From: Chloroflexota bacterium
GTDB taxonomy: Bacteria; Chloroflexota; Anaerolineae; Promineifilales; Promineifilaceae
Assembly: GCA_018004935.1 (NCBI GenBank)
Contig: JAGNBF010000047.1
Coordinates: 22,733 to 55,526, forward strand
DNA: 32,794 bases
Direction of reading: 5' to 3'
Part shown: positions 3-32,794 of the stretch, in pieces
Layout: each line of letters starts with the position of its first letter
Position numbering within the stretch: the stretch's first letter is position 1
Notes under the pieces: generated by a model
Seen by the model: only the letters and a program-made list of their open reading frames with translations
Told to the model about the DNA's origin: nothing
Databases searched by the model: none
Program-made: the position numbers and the translations under genes

Positions 3-431
3 TTGTGGGCGATTTACTCTGTTCTGCTCAAAAAATTGCCCCCCACCCTGGCCCAGCCGGTTATCCTCACCGCTACCGTCCTGGCCGGGATGCTCTTTCT
101 CTTGCCCGCCTTCATCATCACCACCCTCGCCGGAGCCACCCTACACCTGACTCCACTCAACGGCCTGGGCATTTTGTATGTGGGCATCTTCCCGTCGGTG
201 CTGGCCTTCTTGTTTTGGAATCGGGGTGTCAGTGTCATCGGCCCCAACAAGGCAGGCATGTACCTGCACCTGATGCCCGTCTTCGGCGCGATTTTGTCGT
301 TTCTCTTTCTGGATGAAGGGCTGGCCGTGTACCACCTGATCGGTGCGGCTCTGGTGTTTGGTGGTATTGTGCTGATGAGCCGGGGCGCGGCCGCGTCTCA
401 AGATATATCAGCCACGAATTTCACGAATTGA
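3..431 (+). CDS. EamA/DMT-family transporter, C-terminal part (cut by left edge)
   Basis: This is the C-terminal half of a drug/metabolite-transporter (EamA) family inner-membrane permease; the N-terminal half lies outside the window, so the first in-frame codon is not a real start. About 140 residues are visible with four to five hydrophobic segments, around residues 20-45, 53-70, 85-100 and 108-126. The region Gly-Ile-Phe-Pro-Ser-Val-Leu-Ala-Phe and the closing helix pattern ending Gly-Ile-Val-Leu-Met-Ser-Arg are typical of the second EamA repeat. The substrate cannot be told. The last residues (Ala-Thr-Asn-Phe-Thr-Asn) are encoded by the left arm of the inverted repeat at 411-477, so the original C-terminus was probably replaced. 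One GCGGCCGC octamer lies at 387. The family call is secure, the function is not. Confidence 0.85.
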   Translation: MWAIYSVLLKKLPPTLAQPVILTATVLAGMLFLLPAFIITTLAGATLHLTPLNGLGILYVGIFPSVLAFLFWNRGVSVIGPNKAGMYLHLMPVFGAILSFLFLDEGLAVYHLIGAALVFGGIVLMSRGAAASQDISATNFTN

Positions 432-477
432 CCCGAATTTCCCTTGTTTGTTCGTGCTAATTCGTGAAATTCGTGGC
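411..477. repeat. Inverted repeat with 19-bp perfect arms
   Basis: The arms at 411-429 and 459-477 are perfect reverse complements (GCCACGAATTTCACGAATT and its complement). The left arm covers the last codons and the first base of the stop codon of the EamA gene. It could act as a bidirectional transcription terminator or be a dispersed mobile palindrome. No T-run follows it. Confidence 0.85.
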
Positions 478-493
478 AAAAGTCTCTTTTTAA

Positions 494-979
494 ATGAACG
501 CCAATCATTCCACCATCCGCCGGGCAGAACAGGACGAGGCGCAAACGATCACCGAAATGGTGGTGCAGTCGAAGGCGCATTGGGGGTATTCGGACGAGTT
601 TATGGAGTACGCGGCCGCGCTCCTCACCGTCACCCCTGATTACCTGGACCAATATCATTGTTATGTGCTGGAACAAGAAGGACAGTTGCAAGGGTTTGCC
701 AGTTGGCAGGCGCAAACAGCCGCAGAAGGGGTGCTGGATATGCTCTTCGTGGCCCCGTCGGCCATGGGGCAAGGGGTAGGGCGGCAGTTGCTGGAATTTG
801 TGAAGGGGATCGCGGCCGCGCACGGCTACCACAGCCTCATCGTCGAAAGCGACCCCAACGCCGCCCCGTTCTACGAAAAAATGGGCGGTCAACTCATCGG
901 CCACCACCCCGTGCCCAGCATCCCCGGCCGCGAGTTACCGCTTTACCGGATATATTTGGACACGGATTTACACGGATGA
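494..979 (+). CDS. GNAT-family N-acetyltransferase
   Basis: This is a single-domain cytoplasmic acetyltransferase of 161 residues that would use acetyl-CoA; the acceptor is unknown. Motif A is clear at about residues 86-110: Leu-Phe-Val-Ala-Pro, then Gly-Gln-Gly-Val-Gly-Arg, the pyrophosphate-binding loop of GNAT proteins. It is followed by the motif B region ending Ala-Pro-Phe-Tyr-Glu-Lys-Met-Gly. The length is normal for the family. No good Shine-Dalgarno precedes the ATG, which sits 16 bp after the upstream palindrome. The last residues (Asp-Thr-Asp-Leu-His-Gly) and the stop codon come from the palindrome at 958-1026. GCGGCCGC at 611 and 812 both encode Ala-Ala-Ala. Confidence 0.88.
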   Translation: MNANHSTIRRAEQDEAQTITEMVVQSKAHWGYSDEFMEYAAALLTVTPDYLDQYHCYVLEQEGQLQGFASWQAQTAAEGVLDMLFVAPSAMGQGVGRQLLEFVKGIAAAHGYHSLIVESDPNAAPFYEKMGGQLIGHHPVPSIPGRELPLYRIYLDTDLHG

Positions 980-1026
980 CACGGATTTTTCTTTTTGATC
1001 CGTGAAATCCCTGTTCATCCGTGTCC
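958..1026. repeat. Imperfect inverted repeat overlapping a stop codon
   Basis: Units of the type ACACGGAT are repeated and inverted: GGACACGGAT at 958-967 faces ATCCGTGTCC at 1017-1026. The left arm contains the stop codon of the GNAT gene at 977-979. The right arm ends about 20 bp before the fadJ-like start. It is probably a dispersed intergenic palindrome. Confidence 0.75.
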
Positions 1027-1046
1027 TAATTTCCTGGAGAAACATC

Positions 1047-3179
1047 ATGGCTTTCCGTTACGACAAAGACGAACAAAACATTGTGACCCTGACCCTGGAC
1101 ATGCCGGGGCGTTCCGCGAATGTGCTCAACGAAGAATTTGGCCGGGGGTTGGCTGAGGTGTTGGCCAGACTCCAGGCCGAAACGGCTCTGGCGGGGGTCA
1201 TTCTCACTTCTGGCAAAAAAACCTTTTTGGCCGGGGGCGACCTGGATTACCTCTACCGCGTCACCGACCCCGCTGAGGTGTTCGGGAGTACCCAACAACT
1301 CAAAACCGGGTTCCGTGCCCTGGAAATATTGGGCAAACCGGTGGTCGCCGCGCTGAACGGCACAGCCCTCGGTGGCGGTCTGGAACTGGCCCTGGCCTGC
1401 CATTACCGTATCTGCCTGGATAATCCCAAAATCAAAATCGGCTTCCCCGAAGTGACGCTGGGACTTCTGCCCGGTGGTGGCGGCGTGGCCCGGCTGACCC
1501 GCATGATCGGCTTGCAGGCGTCGTTCCCGTACCTGAGCGAAGGCAAACAGGTTGACCCGCAGCAGGCGAAAAAGGATGGCCTGATCAACGATCTGGCGGC
1601 GGATATGGACGAGATGATGGCAAAGGCACGGGCCTGGATCACGGCCAACCCCAGCGTCAAACAGCCCTGGGACCAGTCCGGTTACAAAATGCCGGGGGGT
1701 GATCCGAAGCGGCCGCAAATGGTGCAAATGCTCGCCATCGCCCCGGCCATCATGCGCAAAACTACCTACGGCAATTACCCTTCCCCCTCTGCGATTATGA
1801 GCGCGGCGGTCGAGGGAGCGATGGTGGATTTCGACACCGCCTGCCGCATCGAATCCCGCTATTTTGCCCAGGTGGCTACCAGCCAGGTCGCCAAAAACAT
1901 GATCGGCGCGTTCTGGTTCCAGCTCAACGCCATCAACGAAGGGCAGAGCCGCCCACAAGGGATTGAGCCGCAAGACACCCAAAAAGTTGGCGTTCTGGGG
2001 GCGGGCATGATGGGGCACGGCATCGCCTACGTGACCGCCTTCGCCGGGATGGATGTGGTGTTGAAGGATGCCACCTTAGAAAAAGCGGAAGCCGGGAAAG
2101 CCCTGGTAGAGAAAATTTTGCAGAAGCGGGTGAGCCGCGGCCGCATGACTCCCACCGACAAACAGACCATCCTTGACCGCATCCGCCCCACCGCCTCAGC
2201 CGAGGATTTACAGGGGTGCGACCTCATCATCGAAGCCGTCTTTGAAGACCGGGACCTCAAAGCCCGTGTCACCGCCGAAGCCGAGGCCCAAATCCCCCCG
2301 GACGCCATCTTCGGCTCCAACACCTCTACCCTGCCCATCACCGGTCTGGCCGAACGCTCCAGCCGCCCGGAAAACTTCATCGGCGTGCATTTCTTCTCCC
2401 CGGTGGACAAAATGCGGCTGGTGGAAATCATCGTCGGTGAAAAAACCAGCGACCGCGCTCTGGCGAAGGCGTTCGATTACACCCTGAAAATCCGCAAAAC
2501 CCCTATCGTCGTCAACGACAGCCGGGGGTTCTACACCTCACGCGTGTTTGGCACGTATGTCAACGAAGGTCTGGCCCTCTTAGCCGAAGGCCAACACCCC
2601 CGCGCCATCGAATCGGCCGGGTTGCAGGCGGGTATGCCCGTTGGCCCACTGGCCCTCTCCGATGAAGTGAGCATGAGCCTGATGATGCACATCCGCGAAC
2701 AGACGAAAAAGGATTTCGCCGCCGAAGGTCGCCCCTTCCCGGAGCATCCGGCATACCGGGTGCTGGACGTGATGGTGACGGAGCAGAATCGTTCCGGCAA
2801 GGCGCATGGGGCCGGTTTTTATGAGTATCCGGCGGCGGGGCAGAAACATTTGTGGCCGGAATTGCGCCAGTTGTTCCCCCTGAACGGGTTTGGCGAACTA
2901 CCGCAAGCGGAGATGATCGAGCGCATGATGTTCGCCCAGGCCATCGAAACGGTGCGCTGTTACGAAGAGGGTGTCCTGCGCTCCGTCGCCGATGCCAACA
3001 TTGGCAGTATTTTCGGCTGGGGATTCGCCCCCTTCTCCGGCGGCACGCTCCAATACATCAACGCCTACGGCCTGCCCCAGTTCGTCGCCCGCGCCCAAGA
3101 ACTCGCCCACAAATACGGCGACCGCTTTAACCCCCCGGCTTTGCTGATCGAGATGGCCGGGCAGGGGAAGAGCTTTTAA
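1047..3179 (+). CDS. fadJ: Fatty-acid oxidation protein: enoyl-CoA hydratase / 3-hydroxyacyl-CoA dehydrogenase
   Basis: This bifunctional beta-oxidation enzyme of 710 residues hydrates enoyl-CoA and then oxidises 3-hydroxyacyl-CoA with NAD+. The N-terminal crotonase domain (about 1-200) has the oxyanion-hole segment Ala-Gly-Gly-Asp-Leu-Asp (62-67), Asn-Gly-Thr-Ala-Leu-Gly-Gly-Gly (104-111) and the candidate catalytic glutamates E113 and E135. The dehydrogenase domain starts at about 313 with the Rossmann motif Gly-x-Gly-x-Met-x-Gly-His-Gly and carries the catalytic His at 448 in Gly-Val-His-Phe-Phe-Ser-Pro. The C-terminal helical domains follow (Asn-Asp-Ser-x-Gly-Phe-Tyr-Thr-Ser-Arg). The domain order is that of FadB/FadJ, not FadN. 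An ATG at 1002 is in frame but lies in the upstream repeat; 1047 has CTGGAGAA in front. No thiolase is nearby. Octamers lie at 1709 and 2137. Confidence 0.93.
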   Translation: MAFRYDKDEQNIVTLTLDMPGRSANVLNEEFGRGLAEVLARLQAETALAGVILTSGKKTFLAGGDLDYLYRVTDPAEVFGSTQQLKTGFRALEILGKPVVAALNGTALGGGLELALACHYRICLDNPKIKIGFPEVTLGLLPGGGGVARLTRMIGLQASFPYLSEGKQVDPQQAKKDGLINDLAADMDEMMAKARAWITANPSVKQPWDQSGYKMPGGDPKRPQMVQMLAIAPAIMRKTTYGNYPSPSAIMSAAVEGAMVDFDTACRIESRYFAQVATSQVAKNMIGAFWFQLNAINEGQSRPQGIEPQDTQKVGVLGAGMMGHGIAYVTAFAGMDVVLKDATLEKAEAGKALVEKILQKRVSRGRMTPTDKQTILDRIRPTASAEDLQGCDLIIEAVFEDRDLKARVTAEAEAQIPPDAIFGSNTSTLPITGLAERSSRPENFIGVHFFSPVDKMRLVEIIVGEKTSDRALAKAFDYTLKIRKTPIVVNDSRGFYTSRVFGTYVNEGLALLAEGQHPRAIESAGLQAGMPVGPLALSDEVSMSLMMHIREQTKKDFAAEGRPFPEHPAYRVLDVMVTEQNRSGKAHGAGFYEYPAAGQKHLWPELRQLFPLNGFGELPQAEMIERMMFAQAIETVRCYEEGVLRSVADANIGSIFGWGFAPFSGGTLQYINAYGLPQFVARAQELAHKYGDRFNPPALLIEMAGQGKSF

Positions 3180-3303: not shown

Positions 3304-3317
3304 TCAAAGGAGCACAC

Positions 3318-4259
3318 ATGCAGTATCGTCAACTAGGTAATTCCGGCGTCCGGGTGTCTGTCATTGGCATGGGGACGAATCAGTTTGGGAAGGTGGTGGC
3401 GCAGGAAGCGGTGCATGAGATTATCGCGGCCGCGCACGATCATGGCCTCAACTTCATAGACACCGCCGACGTGTACGCCGACAGCCAATCCGAAACCACG
3501 CTGGGCCACGCTCTCAAGGGCCGCCGTGAACAGTTTGTCATCGCCACGAAGGTTTACTTCAAGACGGGCGCAGGCCCCAACGATTACGGCGCATCTCGTT
3601 ACCACATCATGAACGGGGTCGAGGCCAGTTTGCGCCGCCTGCAAACGGATCATATTGACCTGTACCAGATGCACCGCTGGGACGACACCACCCCCATCAC
3701 CGAAACCCTACGCACGCTGGACGACCTGATCCGCAGTGGCAAAGTTCGTTACATCGGCGCGTCCCAATATGCCGCCTGGCAACTGGCCGAGGCCAACCTG
3801 CTGGCCGAACTACGCGGCTGGAGTTCGTTTGTCACCATCCAATCCCATTACCACATGCTAGAGCGGGACGTGGAGAAGGAAGTGTTGCCCTATTGCCGGA
3901 CGCATGGCGTGGGTTTTATCCCCTTTTTCCCCCTGGCGGGGGGCTTCCTGACGGGCAAATACAAACGGGGCGAAGCGGCTCCGGCTGGCTCACGCGGTGA
4001 GAGCAGTGGTTATGTCCAGCAATACATGACCGAGGCCAACTGCACCCGGATTGAGAAATTGGCGGAATGGGCGGGGGAACGCGGCCGCACCCTCGGCGAA
4101 TTAGCTCATGCCTGGCTGTTGGCCCAGCCCCAGGTCTGCTCCGTCATCTCCGGTCTGACCCGGCTCGATCATCTCCTGCAAAACCTCAAAGCGGCGGATT
4201 GGGATTTATCCGCTGAGGAACTCAAGCAGGTTAACGAACTACTTGACGACAAATCGTGA
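3318..4259 (+). CDS. Aldo/keto reductase
   Basis: This is a soluble NAD(P)H-dependent oxidoreductase of 313 residues with the (alpha/beta)8 aldo/keto reductase fold; the natural substrate is unknown. The catalytic tetrad is visible: Asp48 and Tyr53 in Phe-Ile-Asp-Thr-Ala-Asp-Val-Tyr, Lys78 in Ala-Thr-Lys, and His119 in Tyr-Gln-Met-His. The late segment Leu-Ala-Gln-Pro-Gln-Val-Cys-Ser-Val-Ile-Ser-Gly is the usual cofactor-binding end. The start is supported by AAGGAG about 7 bp upstream. The stop codon runs into the palindrome at 4258. Octamers at 3426 (Ala3) and 4081 (Arg-Gly-Arg). Confidence 0.93.
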   Translation: MQYRQLGNSGVRVSVIGMGTNQFGKVVAQEAVHEIIAAAHDHGLNFIDTADVYADSQSETTLGHALKGRREQFVIATKVYFKTGAGPNDYGASRYHIMNGVEASLRRLQTDHIDLYQMHRWDDTTPITETLRTLDDLIRSGKVRYIGASQYAAWQLAEANLLAELRGWSSFVTIQSHYHMLERDVEKEVLPYCRTHGVGFIPFFPLAGGFLTGKYKRGEAAPAGSRGESSGYVQQYMTEANCTRIEKLAEWAGERGRTLGELAHAWLLAQPQVCSVISGLTRLDHLLQNLKAADWDLSAEELKQVNELLDDKS

Positions 4260-4332: not shown

Positions 4333-4343
4333 CCCCCTGGAGT

Positions 4344-5267
4344 ATGATGAACTTATTACCCGATAATCTCACGGTGCGGCCGCCGACGTTGGACGATTTG
4401 GCCGCTGTTCTGGCTCTGGTGCATCTGGTCGAAACGCACGAACATGGCGAACCGGACACCTCGCTCGATGAGTTGAAGGCCAACTGGTCAGAAGTTGATC
4501 TGAACCAAAACATCTGGCTGGTGCATACAGCGGATGGGCAGTTGGTGGGTTATGCCCTGGCCACCCCGGAACACAAGGAATACATCCTTGATTTTTACGT
4601 TCACCCTGATTGGCTGGAAAGTTCCCTGCCCGATTTCTTCCTGGCCGAAATGGAAGCCGTGGCCCGCGCCCACCCCCGCACCCCCGAAGGCTCACGGCTT
4701 AAAAATTACATGCCGGATGTGGCTGTGCCGGAGCAGGCGGCTTTACAGCGAGCCGGTTTCACCTGTGTCAAACACCATTTTCGGATGCAGATTGAGCTGG
4801 CGGAATTGCCGCCGCAAGTGAGTTGGCCGGAAGGGCTGACCTTACGCACTATTCAGCCGGGCGTGGATGATGCGAAGGTGTTTGATCTGATCCAGCACGC
4901 TTTCACCTACGAAGAGGACGATGACGGCACACGGTTTACTTCGTGGCGGGATTACATGATGCGCCCCGATCATTTTACGCCTGACCTCTGGTTTTTGTTG
5001 GAGAAGGGGGATGAACTGGTGGCCTGTGCCCTCTGTTTTGATTATGAGACGTATGGCTGGGTGCGGCAGTTGGCGGTACGGGATGTGTGGCGCGGCCGCG
5101 GGCTGGCCTCAACCATGTTGCAACACATCTTCCGCGTCTTCCACCAGCGGGGTCTGCCCAAAGTCGCCCTGGGGGTCAACGCCACCAACCTGACCGCTTT
5201 CCGCCTGTACGAACGCCAGGGCATGAAGAAAGTGCGCCAGTACGACGAGTTCCACAAACAGGCTTGA
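4344..5267 (+). CDS. Tandem GNAT acetyltransferase (MshD-like layout)
   Basis: This protein of 307 residues has two GNAT folds in tandem, the arrangement of mycothiol synthase and related acyltransferases. The C-terminal copy is well preserved: Val-Arg-Gln-Leu-Ala-Val followed by Arg-Gly-Arg-Gly-Leu-Ala (acetyl-CoA loop), then Leu-Gly-Val-Asn-Ala-Thr-Asn-Leu-Thr-Ala-Phe-Arg-Leu-Tyr-Glu. The N-terminal copy (about 1-145) is degenerate. An in-frame ATG at 4317 lies in the repeat; CTGGAG sits directly before two adjacent ATGs at 4344 and 4347, so either may be used. Mycothiol synthesis itself is not supported by any neighbour, so the acceptor is open. Octamers lie at 4376 and 5092, the latter coding the acetyl-CoA loop. 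Confidence 0.85.
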   Translation: MMNLLPDNLTVRPPTLDDLAAVLALVHLVETHEHGEPDTSLDELKANWSEVDLNQNIWLVHTADGQLVGYALATPEHKEYILDFYVHPDWLESSLPDFFLAEMEAVARAHPRTPEGSRLKNYMPDVAVPEQAALQRAGFTCVKHHFRMQIELAELPPQVSWPEGLTLRTIQPGVDDAKVFDLIQHAFTYEEDDDGTRFTSWRDYMMRPDHFTPDLWFLLEKGDELVACALCFDYETYGWVRQLAVRDVWRGRGLASTMLQHIFRVFHQRGLPKVALGVNATNLTAFRLYERQGMKKVRQYDEFHKQA

Positions 5268-5268
5268 G

Positions 5269-6304: not shown

Positions 6305-6745
6305 ATGACAACCACACAAAATATGACGAACATTCTACAACAACTCAGCCAACAAGCCCCCCAAAACGGTGGCTTAAAACTCCCACCGCCGGTGGCCTTA
6401 CTCATGGAAGTGGAGTTTGTCAGTTACGAAGAGGGGCAGGCGATGACGAATCGTTTTCCGGTGAAGGAGATGTACCAGAATCCGGTGGGGCACATGCAAG
6501 GGGGGATGATCGCGGCCGCGATAGACAACACCCTCGGCCCTCTCAGCTTTCTCCTGGCCCCCTACTCCACCACCACCCACCTCAACCTCACCTACATCCG
6601 CCCCGTCACCCCGGAGATGAGCCACATCCTCGTCACCGCCCGCCTCGTCGAGCGCACCCGCTCCCAACTCCACCTCACCGCCACCGTCACCAGCGAAGAG
6701 GGCAAAACCCTCGCCATCGCCCAGGCCACCCAACGAATCTTATAA
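6305..6745 (+). CDS. PaaI-like hotdog-fold thioesterase
   Basis: This protein of 146 residues has the hotdog acyl-CoA thioesterase pattern: Pro-Val-Gly-His-Met-Gln-Gly-Gly-Met-Ile-Ala-Ala-Ala-Ile-Asp, where His-x-x-Gly-Gly is the family signature and the Asp lies on the hot-dog helix. Beta strands with Thr-Thr-Thr-His-Leu-Asn-Leu-Thr-Tyr-Ile-Arg-Pro follow. It probably hydrolyses an acyl-CoA; substrate unknown. An upstream in-frame ATG at 6248 would overlap the divergent nucleotidyltransferase, so the ATG at 6305 is preferred. The octamer at 6512 encodes the Ala-Ala-Ala of the signature helix. Confidence 0.85.
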   Translation: MTTTQNMTNILQQLSQQAPQNGGLKLPPPVALLMEVEFVSYEEGQAMTNRFPVKEMYQNPVGHMQGGMIAAAIDNTLGPLSFLLAPYSTTTHLNLTYIRPVTPEMSHILVTARLVERTRSQLHLTATVTSEEGKTLAIAQATQRIL

Positions 6746-20278: not shown

Positions 20279-22525
20279 TTAGCGGCGTGGCCCACCAAAA
20301 CGATTGCCACCACCATTGCGGCCGCGGTCTCCACCACCGCCCCCACTACGATTATCACGGCCACCACGATCCCCACCACCAGGTCGTGGGCCTTTGTTTG
20401 CCATGTCATTCGCACGTGCGTCTTCCAGCGTCCAGCCTTCCAGAATCGCTTTACGGGAGAGGCGAACTTTGCCCGATGATGAATCAATATCCGTCACCAT
20501 CACCATAACCTCATCACCCAACTGCACAGCATCTTCCACCCGATTAATTCGTTTTGAAGCCAGTTGCGAGATATGCACCATACCATCAATACCGGGCAGA
20601 ATTTCCACAAAGGCACCGAAATCAGTAATACGCACTACCTTACCCGTGTAAGATTGCCCCAATTCAGGCCCGGTCGTTAAGGAACGAATTTGGTTCAGCG
20701 CCGCATCCGTTTTAACCCCATCCACACCAGCCACAAAGATAGTGCCGTCTTCTTGAATATCAATAGACACCTGATACGCTTCTTCCAAACCCCGAATGGT
20801 GCTACCACCCTTGCCAATAACGGCTCCGATTTTATCCGGGTCAATCTTGATGGACTCCATACGGGGGGCGTATTTGCTCAATTCCTGGCGCGGCCGCGCA
20901 ATCGTCGCCGTCATTACATCCAAAATCTGTAACCGGGCATCTCGTGCCTGGGCCAACGCCTCTGCCATAATCTCCTGGGTCAACCCGGAGATCTTAATAT
21001 CCATCTGCAACGCCGTAACCCCTTCTGCCGTCCCTGCCACCTTAAAATCCATATCCCCCAGGTGATCTTCAACCCCCTGAATGTCCGTCAAAATGGCATA
21101 TTTTGTCCCATCAGAAACCAGCCCCATCGCAATACCCGCTACCGGGCGACGAATCGGTACACCAGTATCCATAAGCGCCAACGTCGAAGCACACACACTG
21201 GCCTGGCTGGTACTCCCATTAGAAGAAAGAACTTCCGAAACCACACGGATCGTGTAGGGGAACTCTTCTTCCGAAGGAATCACATAACGCAAAGCTGTTT
21301 CAGCCAGCGCACCATGACCAATCTCCCGCCGTTTCGGGCCACGTAATGTCCATGTTTCACCCGTAGAAAAGGGAGGAAAATTGTAATGGTGAATATAGCG
21401 ACGGGTTTCTTCTGGGTGCAGACCATCCAATTTTTGTGCTTCGCGAGGAGTTCCCAGCGCCACAATAGACAAAACCTGAGTTTCCCCTCGTTGGAACAAA
21501 CCGGATCCATGAGCGCGAGGACTTAACCCCACTTCCGCAGACAGAGCACGAATATCACGATGACTGCGGCCATCCGGGCGCACCCCTTCATACAAAATCC
21601 GCTGGCGAACTGTTTTCTTAAACTGCTGTCCAAACGCTTCCAGCAAATCTTTGGGCAACGCCGACTCATCATCCGAAACCATCTCGTTAATGATCTCTTC
21701 ACGCAACTCATCAACGGCGGTACTACGCTCATGGCGATCCGTCTGTTCCGCCACTAACAATTCCAGGCGGTCCCCCAGACGAGCTTGCATGGCCGTGACC
21801 ATTGCTTCATCCATGATATTGTAACGAATATCACGTTTGCCCTTGCCTATCGCCTCACGCATCTGCAATTGCACATCAATCAACCCCTGGAGACTGCTGT
21901 GACCAAACGCCAATGCCTGAACCAACACTTCTTCAGGGATCTCATTGGCTCCGGCTTCTACCATAATGATAGCGTCCCGCGTGCCCGCCATCCGTAGATC
22001 AAGCTGGCTATGTTCCATCTCAGCAATTTCGGGATTAGCAACAAACTGTCCATCAATATAACCAACACGGACAGCCCCAATCGGCCCTTCCCAAGGAATA
22101 TCCGAAAGCATAATCGCCGCACTGGCCGCATTTACAGCCATTATGTCCAGATGGTGAACACTATCAGAAGATAACGTGGTCACAATAATCTGAACTTCAT
22201 TACGCATACCATCGGGAAACAGCGGCCGCAACGGGCGATCCACCAACCGGCAGATCAACGTCGCTTCTGTCGAAGGGCGGCCTTCCCGACGGAAAAAGCT
22301 ACCAGGAATACGTCCGGCGGCATACATTTTTTCTTCATACTCAACACTCAAGGGAAAAAAGTCTAATCCTTCCCGAGCAGATTTCGACATGGTAGCAGTA
22401 GCCAAAAGCATGCTCTCACCGACTTGAATCGTGACAGCGCCTCCCGCTTGCTGGGCAAGTTTGCCCGTAGTGAAAGTAACCGTCGTTCCGGCCACTTCCG
22501 TGGTAAAAATGTGTTCTTGTGACAT
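20279..22525 (-). CDS. pnp: Polyribonucleotide nucleotidyltransferase (PNPase)
   Basis: This 3'-5' phosphorolytic exoribonuclease of 748 residues works in mRNA turnover. Two RNase-PH domains are present: the first has Phe-Phe-Arg-Arg-Glu-Gly-Arg-Pro-Ser and the second [11 protein letters not shown]. The KH domain ([11 protein letters not shown]) and the S1 domain (Thr-Asp-Phe-Gly-Ala-Phe-Val-Glu-Ile) follow. The tail after S1 is a Gly/Arg/Asp-rich disordered stretch of about 45 residues with RGG-like units, reminiscent of RNA-binding tails. The Met at 22525 with GAGGAAAACC upstream is preferred to the one at 22537. It lies downstream of rpsO, the common bacterial order, but here about 700 bp and a terminator separate them. 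Octamers at 20318, 20890 and 22222. Confidence 0.96.
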
Positions 22526-23497: not shown

Positions 23498-23499
23498 AT

Positions 23500-24370: not shown

Positions 24371-25950
24371 CGTACCTGTCTCCGTGAGTACCAGACCGCC
24401 CCGCCAATGATCAGCATTAAGACCGGGCCAAGCCAGGTACTGATCCAACGCAAAAGGGTCAATTGTTCTTGAGGAATAGCGATAGACCGTTGTATGGATT
24501 CGCGAGGTGTCAGATTAATGCTGAATTCGTCACGGGCTAACCAATTCATTGAATTGGTAAAAAGCAGGCTATTACCTCCCGTGGCACTACCGGTATTACG
24601 GATAAAGTCGGAGTCACTAAAAAGCACCAGGCGTCCACCGGTTAATGTATTTTCGGCAGACACACCTACTGCTAGAGGGCCACCGTTGTCATCTTCAGTT
24701 TCAGCCACGCTCCCTGTCTGGAAAAGGCTCACGATGTCTGTCTCACCCCAGGCGGCTTCGCTGGTACGTACAAGTTCTACAGAGGTAATCGTCTCCTGGG
24801 GGGCAATGGCGATAGAACGGGCCACGCGGAAAACGGTACCAAACTGGGGTAACTCTTCGGTGATGATGGGGCTAGAGCCAAAATCTACGCCCAGAAAGGT
24901 TACGCCATCGGATACACCTGCCTGTGCTAATTCCAGATCAACGATCACATCAAAACGAACAAACAAACCCCAATCGTCTAGTAGGGGTTGGATGGTATCG
25001 GCTCCATTCGCGGCCGCGTTGACCATTTCTTCTGTAGCCGGGAAATCTATAGACAGGAAGACAGATCCACCTCCATTCAGGTACGTGCGCAGGGCTTCTA
25101 CTTCTTCTGCCGGAATTGGGGCCTGTGGATCCACCACAATTACAGCCGAAGCATCGGTTGGGACACTTCCTTCAGTAAAGAGATTTAAGGAGGCTAAAGT
25201 AAACCCTACTTCTTCTAAACCCGCCTGAAGTTGACCTAAACCCGTTTCATCAAAGCCATCATAGGCTGGTTCCCCATGTCCAGAAAGGAAATAGAGTTTC
25301 TTTTCTTGGGGGTTGAGCACCTGCACCAAAGCGGCATGAATATCACGCTCTGCTGTCCCACTGGCTTTAGAAAACTGTTCGTTTTCACCTTCACCCTGGG
25401 TAAACACCAGCGTAGCATCGGCGGTTAGTGCGTATTGCTCCACCAACAAGGGGTTAGACAGCGGGTCTTCAAATTCATAACTAATTTGATCCGTATAGGC
25501 AGTCAATGAGTCCAGGACACTGCGAGCTTGTTCTTGCTGGAAAGACGCCTGAGGGGTGTAAAACCCAATGACTTTGATAGGCTGGTCCAATCCTTCAAGC
25601 AGGGCCAAGGTCTCCGGCAAGGGAGTGAATTCGCCCGCTTCGGTGAGATCATAACGCCAATCATTATTGCTATAAGCCACGTAGTAAAGAATTGCGGCGA
25701 TGGCAACGACAAACAGGATGGAGAGAAAGGTGTTGAGGCCATAGCGGAAATTGCGGCCGCTGAGCATGATCCGCACATCATCAGGCCGGAAAACGGCAAA
25801 AAGAAGCAAAAGCAGAGCACCCAACCCCAAGAGAATGTTGACCAAAGTGGTAAAACGGTCTACCACCACATAGGTCACAGCCCCAGACAGGAGTAACAGT
25901 AGCCCTACCCAGGGAAAAACGGAAATCAAGTTTTGTGTGGTTTTATTCAT
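24367..25950 (-). CDS. GldG-like auxiliary component of an ABC exporter
   Basis: This 527-residue protein has three N-terminal membrane helices (about 10-32, 33-52, 70-93), a large extracytoplasmic domain and one C-terminal helix before Tyr-Ser-Arg-Arg-Gln-Val-Arg. The domain matches the ABC_transp_aux family: Phe-Glu-Asp-Pro-Leu, Phe-Leu-Ser-Gly-His-Gly-Glu-Pro, and Leu-Asn-Gly-Gly-Gly-Ser-Val-Phe-Leu. In Bacteroidota GldG works with GldA and GldF in gliding, but the family is wider, and no other gliding gene is here. It starts 29 bp after the permease gene with GAGG upstream. Octamers at 25010 and 25753. Confidence 0.87.
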   Translation of the reverse strand: MNKTTQNLISVFPWVGLLLLLSGAVTYVVVDRFTTLVNILLGLGALLLLLFAVFRPDDVRIMLSGRNFRYGLNTFLSILFVVAIAAILYYVAYSNNDWRYDLTEAGEFTPLPETLALLEGLDQPIKVIGFYTPQASFQQEQARSVLDSLTAYTDQISYEFEDPLSNPLLVEQYALTADATLVFTQGEGENEQFSKASGTAERDIHAALVQVLNPQEKKLYFLSGHGEPAYDGFDETGLGQLQAGLEEVGFTLASLNLFTEGSVPTDASAVIVVDPQAPIPAEEVEALRTYLNGGGSVFLSIDFPATEEMVNAAANGADTIQPLLDDWGLFVRFDVIVDLELAQAGVSDGVTFLGVDFGSSPIITEELPQFGTVFRVARSIAIAPQETITSVELVRTSEAAWGETDIVSLFQTGSVAETEDDNGGPLAVGVSAENTLTGGRLVLFSDSDFIRNTGSATGGNSLLFTNSMNWLARDEFSINLTPRESIQRSIAIPQEQLTLLRWISTWLGPVLMLIIGGAVWYSRRQVR

Positions 25951-25979: not shown

Positions 25980-26720
25980 TTAACGCCAACGACGGCTCTC
26001 AAAGATGCGTGCGGCCGCGAACAGGAATATCCCTGTCAGCAAAACAAAATACAGGACATCCTTCACCGTCAACACCCCATTAAAAAAGTTATCTTGGTGT
26101 GACAACATTGAAAGCTCCCGCATAATCGTACTGACATTTGTGGGCAAAGAAGGGTTACTCCCCAAAAAGGCCATCAGATAAAAAATCAGAATCACAGCAA
26201 ATGAGAGCATGAAAGCATTGATCTGATTGGTTGAAATCGCAGACGCAAAAATCCCGATACTAATCAAAGCACTCCCCCATAACAGCACCAACAGATACGC
26301 TGTAATCATAGGGCCAACATCCGGGTTGCCAAAACGCAACAAAACGAAGGGATAAATAAGCGTCAACGCCGTTGTCGCCACCCATAACAAAAAGGCGGCG
26401 ATAAACTTACCCAAAATTACCTGACCATCCGTTATCGGCATAGTCATCAACAACTCCACGGTCCCACTCTGCCGCTCCTCAGAAATAAGGCGCATCGTAA
26501 TCGCGGGCACCGCAAACACTGCCAGGAAAGCAAAGGTAGCCAGAGAATCGGCGACTGTAGGCGCGGCTCCACTCTGTGCCCCTTGTGTTGCCAGGAACAA
26601 AATCTGTTGGGCAAAAATAGCCCCACTGATCAGGGTCATGGCGGCAATAAACACATACGCTATAGGCTGAACAAAGATAGCCCCCAGTTCGCGGCGGGCA
26701 ATAAACCAGGCGTTTTGCAT
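25980..26720 (-). CDS. ABC-2 type permease (GldF-like)
   Basis: This 246-residue permease has about six membrane helices. Typical ABC-2 features are the start Ala-Arg-Arg-Glu-Leu-Gly-Ala-Ile-Phe and Leu-Ile-Ser-Glu-Glu-Arg-Gln-Ser-Gly-Thr-Val-Glu-Leu-Leu after the second helix, which is the coupling region in GldF-type permeases. Its start codon shares one base with the ATPase stop (TAATG), so the two are translationally coupled. The substrate is unknown. The octamer at 26011 codes Ala-Ala-Ala near the C-terminus. Confidence 0.9.
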   Translation of the reverse strand: MQNAWFIARRELGAIFVQPIAYVFIAAMTLISGAIFAQQILFLATQGAQSGAAPTVADSLATFAFLAVFAVPAITMRLISEERQSGTVELLMTMPITDGQVILGKFIAAFLLWVATTALTLIYPFVLLRFGNPDVGPMITAYLLVLLWGSALISIGIFASAISTNQINAFMLSFAVILIFYLMAFLGSNPSLPTNVSTIMRELSMLSHQDNFFNGVLTVKDVLYFVLLTGIFLFAAARIFESRRWR

Positions 26721-28284: not shown

Positions 28285-28896
28285 ATGGACGTGGCCACCC
28301 TGGTGGAAGTTGTGGATACCTGGTTGCCCGAAACGCCATTTGTGCGTGATGGTGGAAGCCTGCTGATCATGGTTGGTCTGCCAGGAACAGGGAAATCGTC
28401 TCTGGTTGAAGAAATGCAGAAACAGTTGGCCTGTGTCATTATTACCACTGACCGAATACGTCGTTTCTTACCTGAGAAGCCCACTTATACACCGCTAGAA
28501 ACGGTTTTTGTTTATGAAGTGTGTCATGCATTGACTGAATTACGCCTGCGCCAAGGTCAGCGTGTGGTTTTTGATGGCACCAATTATATTGCTACGCAAA
28601 GACAAAAGTTGTACTCAGTAGCCGAGCAACAAGGGTCGGCTTTGGCTATTTGTCATGTGCAGGTGGCCAAAGATATTGCCCGCCGCAGACTAGAGGGTCG
28701 TTTTACGGCACAGCGCCGTCATACAGATATGTCGGAGGCTGATTGGGCCGTATATCAATGGATGGTGGAAGCACAGGAACCCGTAGAGCGGCCGCATCTT
28801 GTTTTAGACACCACAGACACCCCCACAGCCGTACTGGCCTGGCAATTGCGGGAATATTGGCTGGCGTGCGAACAGACATCTGTAGATGAGTGGTAA
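28285..28896 (+). CDS. P-loop kinase-like protein (AAA_33 type)
   Basis: This 203-residue protein has Walker A Gly-Leu-Pro-Gly-Thr-Gly-Lys-Ser-Ser at about 34-42, followed by Ile-Ile-Thr-Thr-Asp-Arg-Ile-Arg-Arg and Val-Val-Phe-Asp-Gly-Thr-Asn-Tyr. This is the layout of small-molecule or polynucleotide kinases of the zeta-toxin/T4 Pnk-like P-loop group. The substrate is unknown. The Met at 28285 has AGGAAAAG upstream. The stop codon at 28894 falls inside the left end of an R2 element. A diacylglycerol-kinase-like gene follows. Octamer at 28788 (Arg-Pro). Confidence 0.8.
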   Translation: MDVATLVEVVDTWLPETPFVRDGGSLLIMVGLPGTGKSSLVEEMQKQLACVIITTDRIRRFLPEKPTYTPLETVFVYEVCHALTELRLRQGQRVVFDGTNYIATQRQKLYSVAEQQGSALAICHVQVAKDIARRRLEGRFTAQRRHTDMSEADWAVYQWMVEAQEPVERPHLVLDTTDTPTAVLAWQLREYWLACEQTSVDEW

Positions 28897-28947: not shown

Positions 28948-28984
28948 GAGATGGGAGCAAATTTGCCCTGGAGATCAATCATTT

Positions 28985-29941
28985 ATGCCCAAAGGAACGC
29001 TTATCTACAACCCAACAGCCGGACCGCTCAATGTGATGGTTACGATTGAAAAGGTGGCCGATTATTGGCGGGATCGGGGCTGGGACATGCGAGTAGAACC
29101 CACGCGATATCCAGGTCATGCGGTAATTTTGGCCCGAGACGCGGCCGCAACGCATCATGATCTCGTTATTGCCGCTGGGGGAGATGGTACATTAGGGGAA
29201 GTCGCCAATGGGCTGGCGTTTACAGATACTATCCTGGCTCCGTTACCCGTAGGCACAGGCAACTCTTTTGGCAAAGAATTAAAAATGCCGCGGCCGCAGT
29301 TATTTAACCAATCTCTTCTCCTCCAGGCCTCTGAAGGGCTGTATCGCGGCCGCGTTCACCAAATGGACCTCGGTTGCCAAAATGACAAATACTGGGTCCT
29401 CTGGGCTGGAGCTGGCGCTGATGGTTATTTGGTAAAACAGATTGAACCCCGCTCTAAATTAACGAAAAAATTGGGGTCTGTCGGCTACTTCCTACAAATT
29501 TTACGTCTTATCCCCAAATTACCACCCGTCAAAGCCACCATCCATGTAGATGGCCAGACTTTTCATGATACCTACTTGCTCGTCACCATCAGTAATTGCC
29601 GCCTCTTTGCCGGAGGCGAGCTGGTTCTCAGCCCTAAGGCCTTCCTTGACGACGGCCTCTTTGAAGTCTGGCTCTTCCCTGGTCATGGTTTAAGCAATAT
29701 TTTGCACTACCTCTGGCAAATCCGCCGGGGCCGACACACCTTTAATCCCAATATCTGTCATACCACCGGCCGTTATGTCGCAGTAGAAAGTGACGCTCCC
29801 CTCTATTTTCATACGGATGGCGACCTCGGGGGCACAACCCCCATGGTTACGAACATCCAACCAGACGCCCTCCGTGTACTCATTCCCAACACAGCCCCCA
29901 GAGATCTGTTTCAGCGGGCGGGAATACCCCTCCTGGAATAA
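28985..29941 (+). CDS. Diacylglycerol/lipid kinase family protein (DagK/YegS type)
   Basis: This 318-residue cytoplasmic or membrane-associated lipid kinase probably phosphorylates diacylglycerol or a related lipid. Signatures: Tyr-Asn-Pro-Thr-Ala-Gly at the start, Ala-Gly-Gly-Asp-Gly-Thr-Leu (ATP-binding loop), Pro-Val-Gly-Thr-Gly-Asn-Ser-Phe, Ala-Gly-Ala-Gly-Ala-Asp-Gly and Phe-Leu-Asp-Asp-Gly-Leu-Phe-Glu-Val-Trp. The C-terminal beta-sandwich ends with His-Thr-Asp-Gly-Asp. Length and motifs are normal. GGAG lies 12 bp before the ATG. Octamers at 29141, 29290 and 29346 lie within 213 bp, two of them only 56 bp apart. Confidence 0.92.
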   Translation: MPKGTLIYNPTAGPLNVMVTIEKVADYWRDRGWDMRVEPTRYPGHAVILARDAAATHHDLVIAAGGDGTLGEVANGLAFTDTILAPLPVGTGNSFGKELKMPRPQLFNQSLLLQASEGLYRGRVHQMDLGCQNDKYWVLWAGAGADGYLVKQIEPRSKLTKKLGSVGYFLQILRLIPKLPPVKATIHVDGQTFHDTYLLVTISNCRLFAGGELVLSPKAFLDDGLFEVWLFPGHGLSNILHYLWQIRRGRHTFNPNICHTTGRYVAVESDAPLYFHTDGDLGGTTPMVTNIQPDALRVLIPNTAPRDLFQRAGIPLLE

Positions 29942-30242: not shown

Positions 30243-31982
30243 TTAGCGATTCAGCAGAGGCAAATAGAGTTCATCCGTTATCATGGGGCATTGTTCATAA
30301 GTAAAGGCTACCACATAAGTTCCCCAATGGGCTTCGTTAGGAATATCTTTGCTATATTCGCCAATGGCCCAAAAGGTTTCCCCATCTGGATCAATTGTCA
30401 TTGTCATGTAATCACCCCACCGGTAAGGGGGTACGTCGCTGGGAAATGAGGTATAGGCCACTTCACCCCCTTTCACTACCCCTTCTAACCAGACCTGGGC
30501 AGGGTAAATGGTACCACTACGGCAGGTAAAAAAGGCACCCGGATAGCTATCAGAACTCATTCGCGCATAGACCATCGCCATATTGCCAAAACGGTCTACC
30601 ATTAGATCCGGGTAGGCGCGATAGGTTCCATTACTGCCTAAAACCCCATATTGAACAATGGAACCCGAATTAGGCTCTATTTTGGCCCAGCGTATGCAAT
30701 TGACCGAACCATAACCAGGATTACAACTGATGTGCATTGTTGTCCAGAGGAAACCGTTACGATATTCCAGGTCCCATTGGCGGGAGTCAATGCGCCCCTG
30801 ATTAGGGCGGCCGCCAATATCTGCCCCATTTTTTTGTGGCATAATGAGGGGAGTTCCTGCGGGTATGCCTGTTGTGGCCGTGAGATCAAAGACCGCCACG
30901 GAGGTCAGGTTATTGGCACCAAAGGGGGCATCCCAGGCATAAAGGGTATACACATCATCATCATAGTGGTGAACCAGAATGTGATGGGGGCCGCTGGTGG
31001 GCCAGGTGCCCTGATCAAAACCATGCAGATGGGCGGGAGTAGGCGAGGGGTTCGTGAGAGAGGGGTTGATAGTACGCATGATCGCGGCCGCGCCCACACC
31101 TGCATAGAGGTCGGCCTTACGAATCGCATAAATCTGCCCTACCCCACCCGGTGCCCCATAATTGTTGGCCCCAACAAACAGCTCATTTCGGCCAATCCCC
31201 GCCTGGGGAAAATCAAAAAAGCCTGTTCCGGTATTAAATGTGTAGACATACCAACCACTGGTGGGGTTGCCGGTTTGGGAAACGGCTACACACAAGGCAG
31301 TACCCCCACCATCGGCGATGAGCAAGTAACGATTGTCTTTTTCGTCGTACAGCAATTCAGGGTCAAAGGGGGCTGTGCCACAACCACTGCCTGTCCCGGC
31401 AAATAAGGCGGAGAGGGTGATGGGTCCCAGTAAAGAGGCACCATTTTTGTCATAGATAGCAAAGGCTTTGTTTACAGCTACCATCACATGATTTGTCCCT
31501 ACCGCTAACACCGGGTCAGGTGGAGTCAGGCCACCAGATGGGCCACAACATTGGCTGTAATCCAGTGTATCAAACCCCAGAAGAGGCTCACTAGATGGCG
31601 CGGCCGCGTCCCATACCTGTATCACCTTATCACTGGGGGGTAAATTCAGAGCCTGAGCTTCCTGCTGTGCCCACTGCTCCAGCGGCAAAATATCGGCCTC
31701 GTTGGGGCCAAGGTTGCCCTGATGTTCCCAGGTATCAAAAGCCGTCGCAGGCGGCAGATCGACCAGGTTGACCGTTATCGGCAATACCGGATCGAAACGA
31801 ATCGTGTCGGTGATAGCGAAAGTGTTTGGGTTCGCGGCCGCGGTTTGCCTACTTATATTCAAACTACCTGCCGGAGCCTGGGACGCTCCCCTTGGCGGCA
31901 CACCTTGCGGCACGGCCCCAATCACTCCCACAACCACTATAACTAACATACTTAACCCCAACCATCGTTGTAATTTACCCAT
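30243..31982 (-). CDS. Secreted protein of unknown function ending in Tyr-Leu-Pro-Leu-Leu
   Basis: This 579-residue exported protein has an N-terminal signal or anchor helix (about 7-25). The mature part has repeated short motifs with Trp/Tyr/Gly blocks separated by loops, suggesting a beta-propeller: Ala-Val-Gly-Thr-Asn-His-Val-Met-Val-Ala-Val-Asn, Tyr-Asp-Glu-Lys-Asp-Asn-Arg-Tyr, and Tyr-Arg-Ala-Tyr-Pro-Asp-Leu-Met-Val-Asp. Several Cys residues occur, including a Cys-Cys pair. The final residues Glu-Leu-Tyr-Leu-Pro-Leu-Leu-Asn-Arg resemble a segment of the 7005-8573 protein. No enzyme motif is recognised. Octamers at 30807, 31084, 31600 and 31834. Confidence 0.75.
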   Translation of the reverse strand: MGKLQRWLGLSMLVIVVVGVIGAVPQGVPPRGASQAPAGSLNISRQTAAANPNTFAITDTIRFDPVLPITVNLVDLPPATAFDTWEHQGNLGPNEADILPLEQWAQQEAQALNLPPSDKVIQVWDAAAPSSEPLLGFDTLDYSQCCGPSGGLTPPDPVLAVGTNHVMVAVNKAFAIYDKNGASLLGPITLSALFAGTGSGCGTAPFDPELLYDEKDNRYLLIADGGGTALCVAVSQTGNPTSGWYVYTFNTGTGFFDFPQAGIGRNELFVGANNYGAPGGVGQIYAIRKADLYAGVGAAAIMRTINPSLTNPSPTPAHLHGFDQGTWPTSGPHHILVHHYDDDVYTLYAWDAPFGANNLTSVAVFDLTATTGIPAGTPLIMPQKNGADIGGRPNQGRIDSRQWDLEYRNGFLWTTMHISCNPGYGSVNCIRWAKIEPNSGSIVQYGVLGSNGTYRAYPDLMVDRFGNMAMVYARMSSDSYPGAFFTCRSGTIYPAQVWLEGVVKGGEVAYTSFPSDVPPYRWGDYMTMTIDPDGETFWAIGEYSKDIPNEAHWGTYVVAFTYEQCPMITDELYLPLLNR

Positions 31983-32016
31983 ACAAACCTCAATCTGATT
32001 GTTAATAATCGTAACC

Positions 32017-32099
32017 GTTCAGCCTTCGGAAGGTTTGTATCACTGGTCAACGTCTCTCCTCAAACCTTCGGGAGGCTTCCTCCCCAGAGGGACTGAACG
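32017..32099. repeat. Nested inverted repeat
   Basis: Outer arms GTTCAG (32017) and CTGAAC (32093) enclose CCTTCGGAAGGTTTG facing CAAACCTTCGGGAGG. The outer GTTCAG/CTGAAC ends are the same as those of R4 at 15987-16108. Confidence 0.75.
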
Positions 32100-32131
32100 C
32101 TTACTATAGCTTTTAAGAAAAAGATTTTGAC

Positions 32132-32190
32132 TGTACGGGCAACCCTTGTGGTTGCCCCAGTGCAGGGCAGGCACAAGGCCAGCCCTTACT
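32132..32190. repeat. R1 element, core only (copy d)
   Basis: GTACGGGCAACCCTTGTGGT and GGGCAGGCACAAGGCCAGCC match 16136-16190 closely, but the outer terminal repeats seen in copies a-c are missing. Confidence 0.8.
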
Positions 32191-32400
32191 CCAAATCATT
32201 ATCTTAAGGTCTACAATAACCCCTATTCATTGCATTATAACAACCGCCAAAACGCACAGACAACGCCCGCCCCCCGACTCTCCCTCGATTCTCAGGTGAA
32301 GCACCCTGGCCCCTCAAGAGTTTGGTAAAATAAGAAGAGTGTGAGCAATAAACTCTATATTCAAAATCCCAAAGACCCATTTTTTACAACGAGGTACATT

Positions 32401-32794
32401 ATGCGACGGTTTTGGCTCTGGTTTTTTTGTTTACTCCTGTTATCTCTGGCCTGCGGCCGCACGGCTCCCCCCAGCCCTGTCACATCTACAGCCGCGCCCA
32501 CAGCTACCCCCCAACCAGCTACCCCAACCCCCATTGCGGCCGCAACCCGTACCCCTTTCCCGGCCACCATCACCCCTGCCCCCAGGCCTACCCTGGCTCC
32601 GGCAAACGCCACACCCACAAAGAACGCGGCCGCGAATCAGCCTACGCCTGCCCCAGATACCCCCCCCCCCCCCCCCCCCCCCAAACCCCCTCTCTTTTAC
32701 TTTTAAACCCCCCATGGTTCCCCCCACCTCATTGTCCAAGAAAGCCCCATGGTCTGGATGAAACTGGCCGGGGAAAGGGGGGAGAGTGGGGGTT
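32401..32794 (+). CDS. Putative lipoprotein with Thr/Pro/Ala linker, cut by the right edge
   Basis: The start ATG at 32401 has GAGG 7 bp upstream. A signal peptide (about 1-18) ends in Leu-Ser-Leu-Ala-Cys, a plausible though imperfect lipobox. A Pro/Thr/Ala-rich linker follows from residue 21 onward, which in this group usually carries a substrate-binding or unknown domain outside the membrane. A run of 23 C residues at 32660-32682 comes next, and in the current frame a stop falls at 32706. Because the sequence after the homopolymer is low complexity and close to the window end, the true frame probably continues past it. Octamers at 32453, 32536 and 32626, the last two coding Ala-Ala-Ala. Confidence 0.6.

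Follow-up and report, generated by a model that had tools for sequence, protein, structure and literature searches.

The window analysed here is a stretch of 32,794 nucleotides from the genome of a Chloroflexota bacterium (G000:C210:22733-55526; the G000 assembly has 7,977,649 bases in 229 contigs), and it carries 45 copies of the palindromic octamer GCGGCCGC. This octamer is a genome-wide signal that works like the highly iterated palindromes (HIPs) of cyanobacteria and has the abundance of that class, without being HIP1 itself. Most sampled genomes of the family share its hexamer core, CGGCCG, and differ in the outer base pair, and the GC skew of the flanking DNA changes sign at the octamer. 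We propose, with a probability of roughly 0.4, that the octamer is a HIP-class site recognised from either side by a candidate sequence-specific DNA-processing system.

The octamer is over-represented throughout the genome

All 45 copies that a first reading of the window, made from the letters alone (the sequence-only reading), had listed are exact when both strands are read, and dinucleotide-preserving shuffles of the window contain on average 0.77 copies and at most 3 (n=100). The whole genome has 12,040 copies of GCGGCCGC, i.e., one per 663 bp or 1,509 per Mb, and two copies of the reversed control word CGCCGGCG. We counted 591 copies in 24 loci of G000 (378,663 bases), where first- and second-order Markov models predict 10.3 and 16.3, respectively. 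This corresponds to observed-to-expected ratios (O/E) of 64.8 (base composition), 57.6 (first order), and 36.3 (second order). The count over 27 loci that include the window (432,616 bases) is 662, for 11.4 expected.

The other palindromes made of G and C do not share this enrichment and are mostly under expectation. In the 27 loci, the 15 other palindromic octamers of this composition have 0 to 9 copies each, with the exception of GCCGCGGC, whose 76 copies are mostly parts of overlapping GCGGCCGC octamers and fall to 3 when the latter are masked. Hence, we observe neither a count close to the Markov expectation nor an equal enrichment of all GC-only palindromes, the two outcomes that the sequence-only reading had regarded as fatal to its proposal of a maintained signal. 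Words with a single mismatch to GCGGCCGC show no excess (0.61–0.88 of the expectation, depending on the position), and the octamer of G000 is therefore not surrounded by decaying or imprecise versions of itself.

The family shares a core and varies the outer base pair

The element common to the family is the CGGCCG core, while the outer base pair varies between lineages as a dialect. The sequence-only reading was right that the octamer is real and overlooked this core with its lineage-specific outer pair. Among the 64 palindromic hexamers, CGGCCG is the first or second most over-represented in 31 of 35 family genomes (G000–G034), the exceptions being G009, G011, G020, and G027. Of the 52 family genomes, 29 contain the word ACGGCCGT (A dialect) in 2,887 to 15,176 copies, or 28 when G025, where the core has mixed outer pairs, is left aside; the reversed control reaches at most 459 copies in these ACGGCCGT-rich genomes. 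G000 has only 83 copies of ACGGCCGT, and it alone has GCGGCCGC (G dialect) at such abundance, the family runner-up having 1,959 copies. A third word, TCGGCCGA (T dialect), prevails in the sequence samples of G007 and G031. G019 resembled the T dialect in a small sample and turned out to be core-only once more sequence was added. In the genera g4 and g6 and in the sister family f2, the core is enriched in the sampled members while its outer pair is not fixed, and the whole genome of G011 (~4.0 Mb) uses a different core, with 3,665 copies of TGCCGGCA and 14 of ACGGCCGT.

The dialects also differ in the words that surround the octamer in sequence space. One-off words have an O/E of 2.67 in the A-dialect pool when the mismatch is at the outer positions and of 0.66–0.99 when it is at the inner ones, the corresponding values in G000 being 0.61 and 0.65–0.88. 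The base preceding the octamer is C in 66% of the strand-sites of G000, A in 48% of those of the A dialect, and T or A in 95% of those of the T dialect.

Dialects agree in 11 of the 13 genera having at least two sampled members. Genus g17 is mixed (G016 is core-only, G031 uses TCGGCCGA), and in genus g10 an excess of CCGGCCGG is clear in G027 (14 copies versus 1.6 expected) and not plain in G009. Several of the samples are smaller than 10 kb (e.g., those of G002, G004, G011, G019, G026, and G032), which makes the assignment of single genomes weak, and the survey includes no sequence sample of G051 and G054. In a tree of RpoB from 26 genomes, which is based on this single gene and gives the A group a modest support of 88/92, 11 A-dialect genomes cluster with G003 (core-only) and G020 (lost), whereas G000 is placed outside this group, G007 and G016 are sisters, and the base is without resolution. 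This topology does not support ACGGCCGT as the ancestral word. The best named RpoB relative of G000 is an uncultured Anaerolineae metagenome-assembled genome (MAG), at 77% identity (records from the genome itself may be excluded), and a contig of a named Anaerolineae MAG (L185) has 22 copies of ACGGCCGT in 17,120 bases.

Another hexamer, TGATCA, is repeatedly among the top over-represented palindromes in many genomes of the class. The accessible part of an analysis of cyanobacterial words (Elhai 2015, PMC4390886) reports it as over-represented in picocyanobacteria.

Sites are kept within a dialect and are imprinted on proteins

In 118,262 residues encoded by G000, we counted 426 AAA tripeptides, which is 2.44 times the expectation from dipeptides, and 364 of these occurrences are encoded as GCG GCC GCN when codon usage predicts 51. 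The other dialects have other tripeptides: TAV has an O/E of 3.51 in A-dialect genomes, with 301 of 324 occurrences encoded as ACG GCC GTN, and SAE and SAD have an O/E of 3.69 and 2.08 in T-dialect genomes, where together they are encoded as TCG GCC GAN in 68 of 76 cases. The same tripeptides have an O/E of 0.74 to 1.35 in the genomes of the two octamer dialects to which they do not belong. Because the excess of tripeptides is specific to the dialect, a force acting at the level of DNA overrides amino-acid preference at many positions.

The opposite explanation is that the word arises secondarily, from the preferences of proteins or codons (Ala-Ala-Ala runs encoded by G+C-rich triplets) or from base composition, and this would account for the 367 of 622 coding copies in G000 (59%) that lie in one frame and read Ala-Ala-Ala. 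Yet the octamer also occurs in the two other frames (145 and 110 copies) and in non-coding DNA, codon usage accounts for a small part of the Ala-Ala-Ala codons, the other G/C palindromes are mostly scarce, and the T and A dialects use other tripeptides. The codon-usage test and the palindrome counts refute this explanation, which retains next to no probability.

We studied the conservation of the sites in genes related by reciprocal best hits, leaving out the RpoB loci and the pairs with more than 92% identity. A-dialect sites are retained as octamers in the orthologue in 24 of 50 cases, a conserved site being scored from both genomes, versus 4.8 expected from matched 8-mers taken from these alignments in the same frames. 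This conservation and the genome-wide count support the maintained signal proposed by the sequence-only reading. Between G000 and its A-dialect orthologues, GCGGCCGC stands opposite ACGGCCGT at 2 of 18 sites (0.6 expected, P ~0.1). Sites are thus retained as long as the dialect is the same, and the G dialect was for the most part established elsewhere, as far as this small sample shows. No GCGGCCGC occurs in the 3,567 nt of RpoB examined in G000, and the gene was rejected as a test of conservation in place.

The GC skew flips at the octamer

The GC skew changes sign at the octamer: the DNA is G-rich on the 5' side and C-rich on the 3' side, on both strands, and most strongly so at third codon positions. 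When all bases are considered, the skew on the 5' side is 0.24–0.31 at -7..-12 and ~0.1 at -25..-36, and the 45 sites of the window alone have a skew of +0.188 on the left and -0.274 on the right (-4..-40, standard error [SE] ~0.034). We quantified the flip as half of the difference between upstream and downstream GC skew at third codon positions, by distance bin. In G000, it is 0.31, 0.36, 0.42, and 0.28 at 2–5, 6–10, 11–20, and 21–35 nt, and 0.22 at 36–60 nt, and in the A dialect it is 0.51 at 2–5, 0.48 at 6–10, 0.28 at 21–35, and 0.18 at 36–60 nt. In both dialects, ~0.14 persists at 61–100 nt, and values near 0.1 extend as far as 400 nt. The bases that change are C and G (in the A dialect at 6–10 nt, C passes from 0.15 before the site to 0.47 after it, and G from 0.49 to 0.19), A and T being little affected. 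Every reading frame shows the flip, as do non-coding sites, and the skew on the 5' side is positive in all 25 octamer-dialect genomes, by more than 2 SE in 23. At the 22 sites of the MAG contig L185, the flip is 0.27, 0.27, 0.40, and 0.30 from the first to the fourth bin, and the divergent word TGCCGGCA of G011 shows an apparent one of 0.30, 0.21, and 0.30 (each +- 0.10), then 0.13 (15 sites).

Related words do not behave in this way. In A-dialect genomes, the flip is about zero at CGGCCG cores with both outer bases wrong and weak at those with one outer base wrong, where it drops from 0.25 to 0.08. The control words TGGCCA and GGCGCC have values near zero, and CCGG has values from -0.13 to 0.03. 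The skew initially seen in G000 at CCGCGG, GCCGCGGC, and CGCG is gone after masking the neighbourhoods of the octamer (36, 4, and 2,011 strand-sites left, respectively). We then compared orthologous positions, counting each once per genome pair. At the 53 positions where one gene has the octamer and its partner has no core within 60 nt, the flip is 0.36 +- 0.03 with the octamer and -0.03 +- 0.03 without it, and the flip is therefore gained and lost together with the octamer.

Three simple causes of the flip were rejected. Mirrored flank positions show no consistent covariation, as hairpins would require. Replication direction does not account for pooled flanks that are two-sided (57 loci: 26 G, 26 A, and 5 T). 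Six of these loci have one side of the wrong sign (L003 left -0.10, L014 right 0.02, L017 right 0.01, L035 right 0.11, L083 left -0.12, and L139 right 0.06), L131 has 0.00 on one side, and the spread between loci exceeds the sampling error (standard deviations of z of 3.3, 2.3, and 1.7), probably because of the local background skew. Finally, deamination of C to T is not the sole cause, since the largest change at third positions is the exchange of C and G (upstream, C>G 113 versus G>C 43; C>T 91 versus T>C 50).

The octamer resembles HIP1 in abundance, shape, and flanks

In the accessible text of Elhai 2015 (PMC4390886), the HIP class consists of palindromes grossly over-represented genome-wide, at 300–2,700 copies per Mb; alternate HIPs are words of at least 75% G+C in genomes with low HIP1; and HIP1 has variants of the outer pair in related cyanobacteria, with TCGATCGA beside GCGATCGC. 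The octamer of G000 has the abundance of the class (1,509 per Mb, base-composition O/E of 64.8) and the composition of the alternate HIPs, being 100% G+C in a genome with no copy of the HIP1 word GCGATCGC in 432,616 bases. It is not HIP1 proper, from which it differs in the word and in a host that is not cyanobacterial. Both are octameric palindromes with a constant hexamer core, ~1.5 copies per kb, and variants of the outer pair in relatives. However, the core is CGGCCG instead of CGATCG, the host is Chloroflexota-like, and A/T is the commonest outer pair in the family. In the HIP class, one-off words are biased to the first and last base; such a bias is seen in the A-dialect pool, and near-miss words are not in excess in G000. 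No universal methyltransferase was found in the family among the enzyme families searched.

The likeness extends to the flanks. In six cyanobacterial loci (133,787 bases, 144 sites, third codon positions), the flip at GCGATCGC is 0.36 +- 0.07, 0.30 +- 0.07, 0.19 +- 0.05, and 0.15 +- 0.04, then -0.01, 0.06, and 0.10, and it is near zero at GGCC and at the other GATC sites of these loci. Taken one by one (all bases, -4..-40), the six loci are all positive (0.041 to 0.100), three of them by at least 2 SE; in L249, the GATC control (27 sites) equals the HIP1 value. The parallel with HIP1 drawn by the sequence-only reading on the basis of density and shape is thus reinforced by an asymmetry of the flanks. 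In the literature that we searched, mostly without subscription papers, we found no earlier report of a flip at HIP1 and no paper on a CGGCCG-type motif in Chloroflexota, which does not establish their absence from print; with the same reservation, we met no earlier HIP-like system outside cyanobacteria. HIP1 was reportedly described by Robinson in 1995, and to our knowledge its function is still not agreed upon.

Dialects of a required core, in thousands of copies, are also the hallmarks of the DNA uptake sequences (DUS) of Neisseriaceae, as described in the accessible part of PMC3630211. The octamer could therefore be a self-recognition sequence for DNA uptake whose copy number is raised by transformation. 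Uptake sequences are, however, not palindromes and are over-abundant outside genes, according to the portion available of a 2007 survey (PMC1939737). In contrast, the octamer is a perfect palindrome and is denser within genes, with 622 copies in the predicted genes of the 27 G000 loci (1.71 per kb) and 40 outside them (0.58 per kb), gene calls being simple open reading frames here and throughout. Uptake also leaves unexplained both the strand flip and the dense copies in phages, and we hold it to be improbable.

Methyltransferases and restriction

Among cyanobacteria, every genome with highly over-represented words has at least one fitting methyltransferase, though four strains with high HIP1 lack a recognisable CGATCG enzyme, as stated in the part of Elhai 2015 (PMC4390886) available to us. 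The model proposed there, applied to our data, is that of an orphan enzyme methylating a cytosine of CGGCCG or GGCC, with mismatch repair directed by the G-methyl-C pair ratcheting near-sites into GCGGCCGC. The word of G000 has the predicted form, G+CGGCCG+C, just as HIP1 is G+CGATCG+C, and its density is within the HIP range. G000 also has candidate enzymes, with 14 PF01555 matches and five PF00145 matched stretches at four places, including a complete gene on contig C180 and a gene on C76 whose match is limited to the first half of the family. The outer pairs of the other genomes are less easily reconciled with this model: methylation of the first C of CGGCCG demands an outer G/C, when most of the family has an outer A/T, and methylation of an inner C would leave the outer pair unfixed.

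The distribution of the enzymes does not match that of the octamer either. PF00145, PF01555, and PF02086 were found in 22, 55, and 43 of 59 genomes, respectively. G005 (94% complete) has a core O/E of 6.9 and no match to any of the three families, and of the 21 A-dialect genomes sampled, 10 lack a PF00145 match, six of these ten being at least 90% complete. The six D12 (PF02086) proteins that we read all carry DPPY, which we take to be typical of adenine methyltransferases. Also against the model, there is no flip beyond 10 nt at GATC and CCWGG in 450 kb of Escherichia coli K-12. No single methyltransferase family among those searched accompanies the octamer in every carrier. These data speak against a universal cytosine methyltransferase and are compatible with different enzymes in different genomes, other families, or genes in missing contigs (6% of G005). 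The solitary methyltransferase suggested by the sequence-only reading thus finds no support as a general cause, and we regard the orphan-enzyme model as unlikely.

A restriction system is a further conceivable source of a palindromic signal. NotI recognises GCGGCCGC, and EagI recognises CGGCCG. G000 has one gene of the NotI family (PF12183), adjoining an N6/N4 methyltransferase gene, but restriction normally depletes its sites, and the octamer shows no such effect of a resident system, being 58-fold above the first-order Markov expectation. PF12183 occurs in 7 of 59 genomes with no visible relation to the octamer or the dialect, and we rejected a NotI-like system as the cause. Many hexamer palindromes are nearly absent from 378,663 bases of G000 (GAGCTC 0, CTGCAG 1, CAGCTG 2, GTCGAC 2, GGGCCC 6, and GCCGGC 5 copies), as if many restriction systems had acted on this genome.

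Two places in G000 with genes of this kind deserve description (Table 1). On contig C49, the NotI-family endonuclease-like gene (5.5e-11), the gene of a 676-aa N6/N4 methyltransferase, and that of a NurA nuclease are adjacent and are possibly a defence operon. The NotI-like gene is adjoined by an open frame of near-identical repeats of ~59 residues, which is probably a DNA repeat array and not a protein. On contig C180, a cytosine-5 methyltransferase gene overlaps the gene of a 421-aa protein with a CPF..C motif, no Pfam match, and a weak similarity to the NotI-like place on C49. The relative of this protein in G013 has several stop codons. We discarded this protein as a candidate, because its strong relatives are only in G013 and G015, where GCGGCCGC is not in excess over the reversed control.

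Mobile DNA carries the octamer in different dialects

We scanned viral sequences for two copies of ACGGCCGT within 30 nt, a search that selects close pairs and in which hosts are unrecorded. It returned at least 120 stretches, of which 80 are listed as loci, and among these at least 12 are dense in ACGGCCGT (two from one contig), with up to 3.7 copies per kb. One locus, L292, resembles a conjugative element as much as a phage. The viral contig L322 shares three genes, at 28 to 55% identity, with a region of G000 (L035) that we call phage-like because of DNA-methyltransferase genes matching PHROGs (one also matches 296 phage records at <60% identity), and not because of structural genes. L035 has 25 copies of GCGGCCGC and none of ACGGCCGT, whereas L322 has 47 copies of ACGGCCGT and none of GCGGCCGC. 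Related mobile DNA thus carries two different dialects; the dialect is that of the host in L035 and presumably also in L322. The skew at -4..-40 is 0.08 +- 0.03 in L035 and 0.00 +- 0.02 in L322.

Other features of the window and the genome

The positions of the octamer in the window are given in Table 1, along with those of the gene sets described above. The window also contains a frame of 1,061 aa with passenger-associated transport repeats (PF12951), which, as far as we know, are not expected in a Chloroflexota-like genome. Elsewhere in G000, the decamer ACAAATTTGT has 14 copies in 378,663 bases, versus 0.64 expected, and is perhaps an operator.

Table 1. Location of the octamers in the window and of other features in G000
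Feature	Location	Strand	Basis
Octamer GCGGCCGC	window: 387..394, 611..618, 812..819, 1709..1716, 2137..2144, 3426..3433, 4081..4088, 4376..4383, 5092..5099	.	Word count
Octamer GCGGCCGC	window: 6512..6519, 9145..9152, 9427..9434, 9883..9890, 10968..10975, 11636..11643, 11963..11970, 12116..12123, 12380..12387	.	Word count
Octamer GCGGCCGC	window: 12883..12890, 15580..15587, 15887..15894, 17529..17536, 17665..17672, 18006..18013, 18643..18650, 19234..19241, 19433..19440	.	Word count
Octamer GCGGCCGC	window: 19669..19676, 20318..20325, 20890..20897, 22222..22229, 25010..25017, 25753..25760, 26011..26018, 28788..28795, 29141..29148	.	Word count
Octamer GCGGCCGC	window: 29290..29297, 29346..29353, 30807..30814, 31084..31091, 31600..31607, 31834..31841, 32453..32460, 32536..32543, 32626..32633	.	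Word count
Frame with transport repeats	window:12718-15903		PF12951
NotI-like, methyltransferase, and NurA genes (possible defence operon)	L058:4576-8664 (C49)	minus	PF12183
Probable DNA repeat array	L058:9154-9594 (C49)		
Cytosine-5 methyltransferase and 421-aa protein genes	L033:5210-7421 (C180)	minus	

Discussion

An exact palindrome whose outer pair can be set anew, flanks that are polar with respect to the strand, and use by mobile DNA without a flip are all accommodated by a recognition site that is read from both sides. As a first guess, the system reading it would act in recombinational repair or in the processing of DNA ends, in the manner of a symmetric Chi. In Chi, the G-rich strand is on the 5' side, which is the side of the 3' tail, and we place end processing first because it is the G-rich strand that would become the 3' tail in an event like that at Chi. 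The sites would mark DNA as self and would be selected for both on the chromosome and in phages. Of the two strands, the one that enters the site in the 5'-to-3' direction would be handled differently from its partner, and this unequal treatment would leave, or require, a G-rich and C-poor strand at the site. The change of composition over ~100 bp on each side may then be the mark of a long residence in the chromosome, or a loading region that phages do not have.

Several results weigh against this proposal. No reader protein of the octamer was found in the families searched. Chi, which attenuates nucleases of the RecBCD/AddAB type, is, like our word, a short over-represented octamer with the G-rich strand on the 5' side, but it is asymmetric, rarer (107 sites in 450 kb of E. 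coli K-12), and without a clear flip in its flanks: the values are inconsistent, from -0.15 to 0.06 on 72 sense sites and 0.13, 0.08, and 0.16 on 33 antisense sites (at most 2.7 SE). "Chi-like" is thus an analogy that failed its sole direct comparison. The flip of the T dialect is missing at 2–5 nt (0.04 +- 0.08), reaches 0.48 at 6–10 nt, and declines to 0.04. Core-only genomes have little or no flip, with none in G003, G005, and G023 despite an enriched core and a slight one (0.1–0.2) in G016 and G025. The 28 positions with an octamer in both orthologues have a flip of 0.19 +- 0.04 in each, and this weaker value at shared, presumably older sites is not what a scar growing with age would give, unless the constraint on the genes confounds the comparison. 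The dense viral loci, among those listed, show no flip beyond 6 nt (0.04, 0.04, 0.03, and 0.01), and in 17 HIP1-dense viral loci it is likewise small (0.04, 0.05, 0.01, and 0.03). Since the octamer is present in the dense viral contigs and the flip is not, the latter is not needed for the role of the octamer there. Finally, the coefficient of variation of the spacing between octamers is 1.01 in G000, as in a Poisson process (1.38 in the A-dialect pool and 0.77 in the small T-dialect pool), and therefore no periodic structural role is visible.

This spacing also bears on a rival explanation, in which the octamer binds an abundant protein organising the nucleoid or chromosome. Such a protein would prefer G-rich 5' and C-rich 3' flanks, and the dialects would track the residues that contact DNA. 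The sharpness of the word in G000, without near-miss cloud, the stability of most dialects within genera, and a flank preference that moves with the octamer are what one would expect from such a protein. On the other hand, an asymmetry over more than 100 bp without mirrored covariation goes beyond an ordinary footprint, dense viral contigs lack this asymmetry, and neither the Poisson-like spacing nor the higher density in coding (1.71 per kb) than in non-coding (0.58 per kb) DNA suits this role. We find the explanation unlikely, to the same degree as the orphan-enzyme model.

If one returns to the recognition site read from both sides, a broader proposal is possible, though doubtful: HIP1 and the CGGCCG octamers of Chloroflexota may be one undescribed bacterial system. 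It would consist of a palindromic mark of self that a DNA-processing machine reads from both directions and that switches the polarity of the strands at its sites, writes tripeptides specific to the dialect, is re-specified wholesale when the reader protein changes, and is copied by phages in the dialect of the host. The family described here provides a HIP-like system in a second phylum, together with natural "mutants" in the form of octamer dialects, core-only genomes, and losses. The skew flip offers a quantitative fingerprint for testing sites of this kind in whatever genome they occur. It tells an octamer dialect apart from a simple enrichment of the core, and HIP1 shares it, which is not clearly so for Chi, GATC, and CCWGG in E. 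coli. The question of what HIP1 is for can thereby be turned into comparisons, in search of a gene that changes with the dialect and of a process that treats the two strands differently. More generally, the finding that a DNA word dictates hundreds of tripeptides is of interest to the study of protein evolution and to the interpretation of codon statistics.

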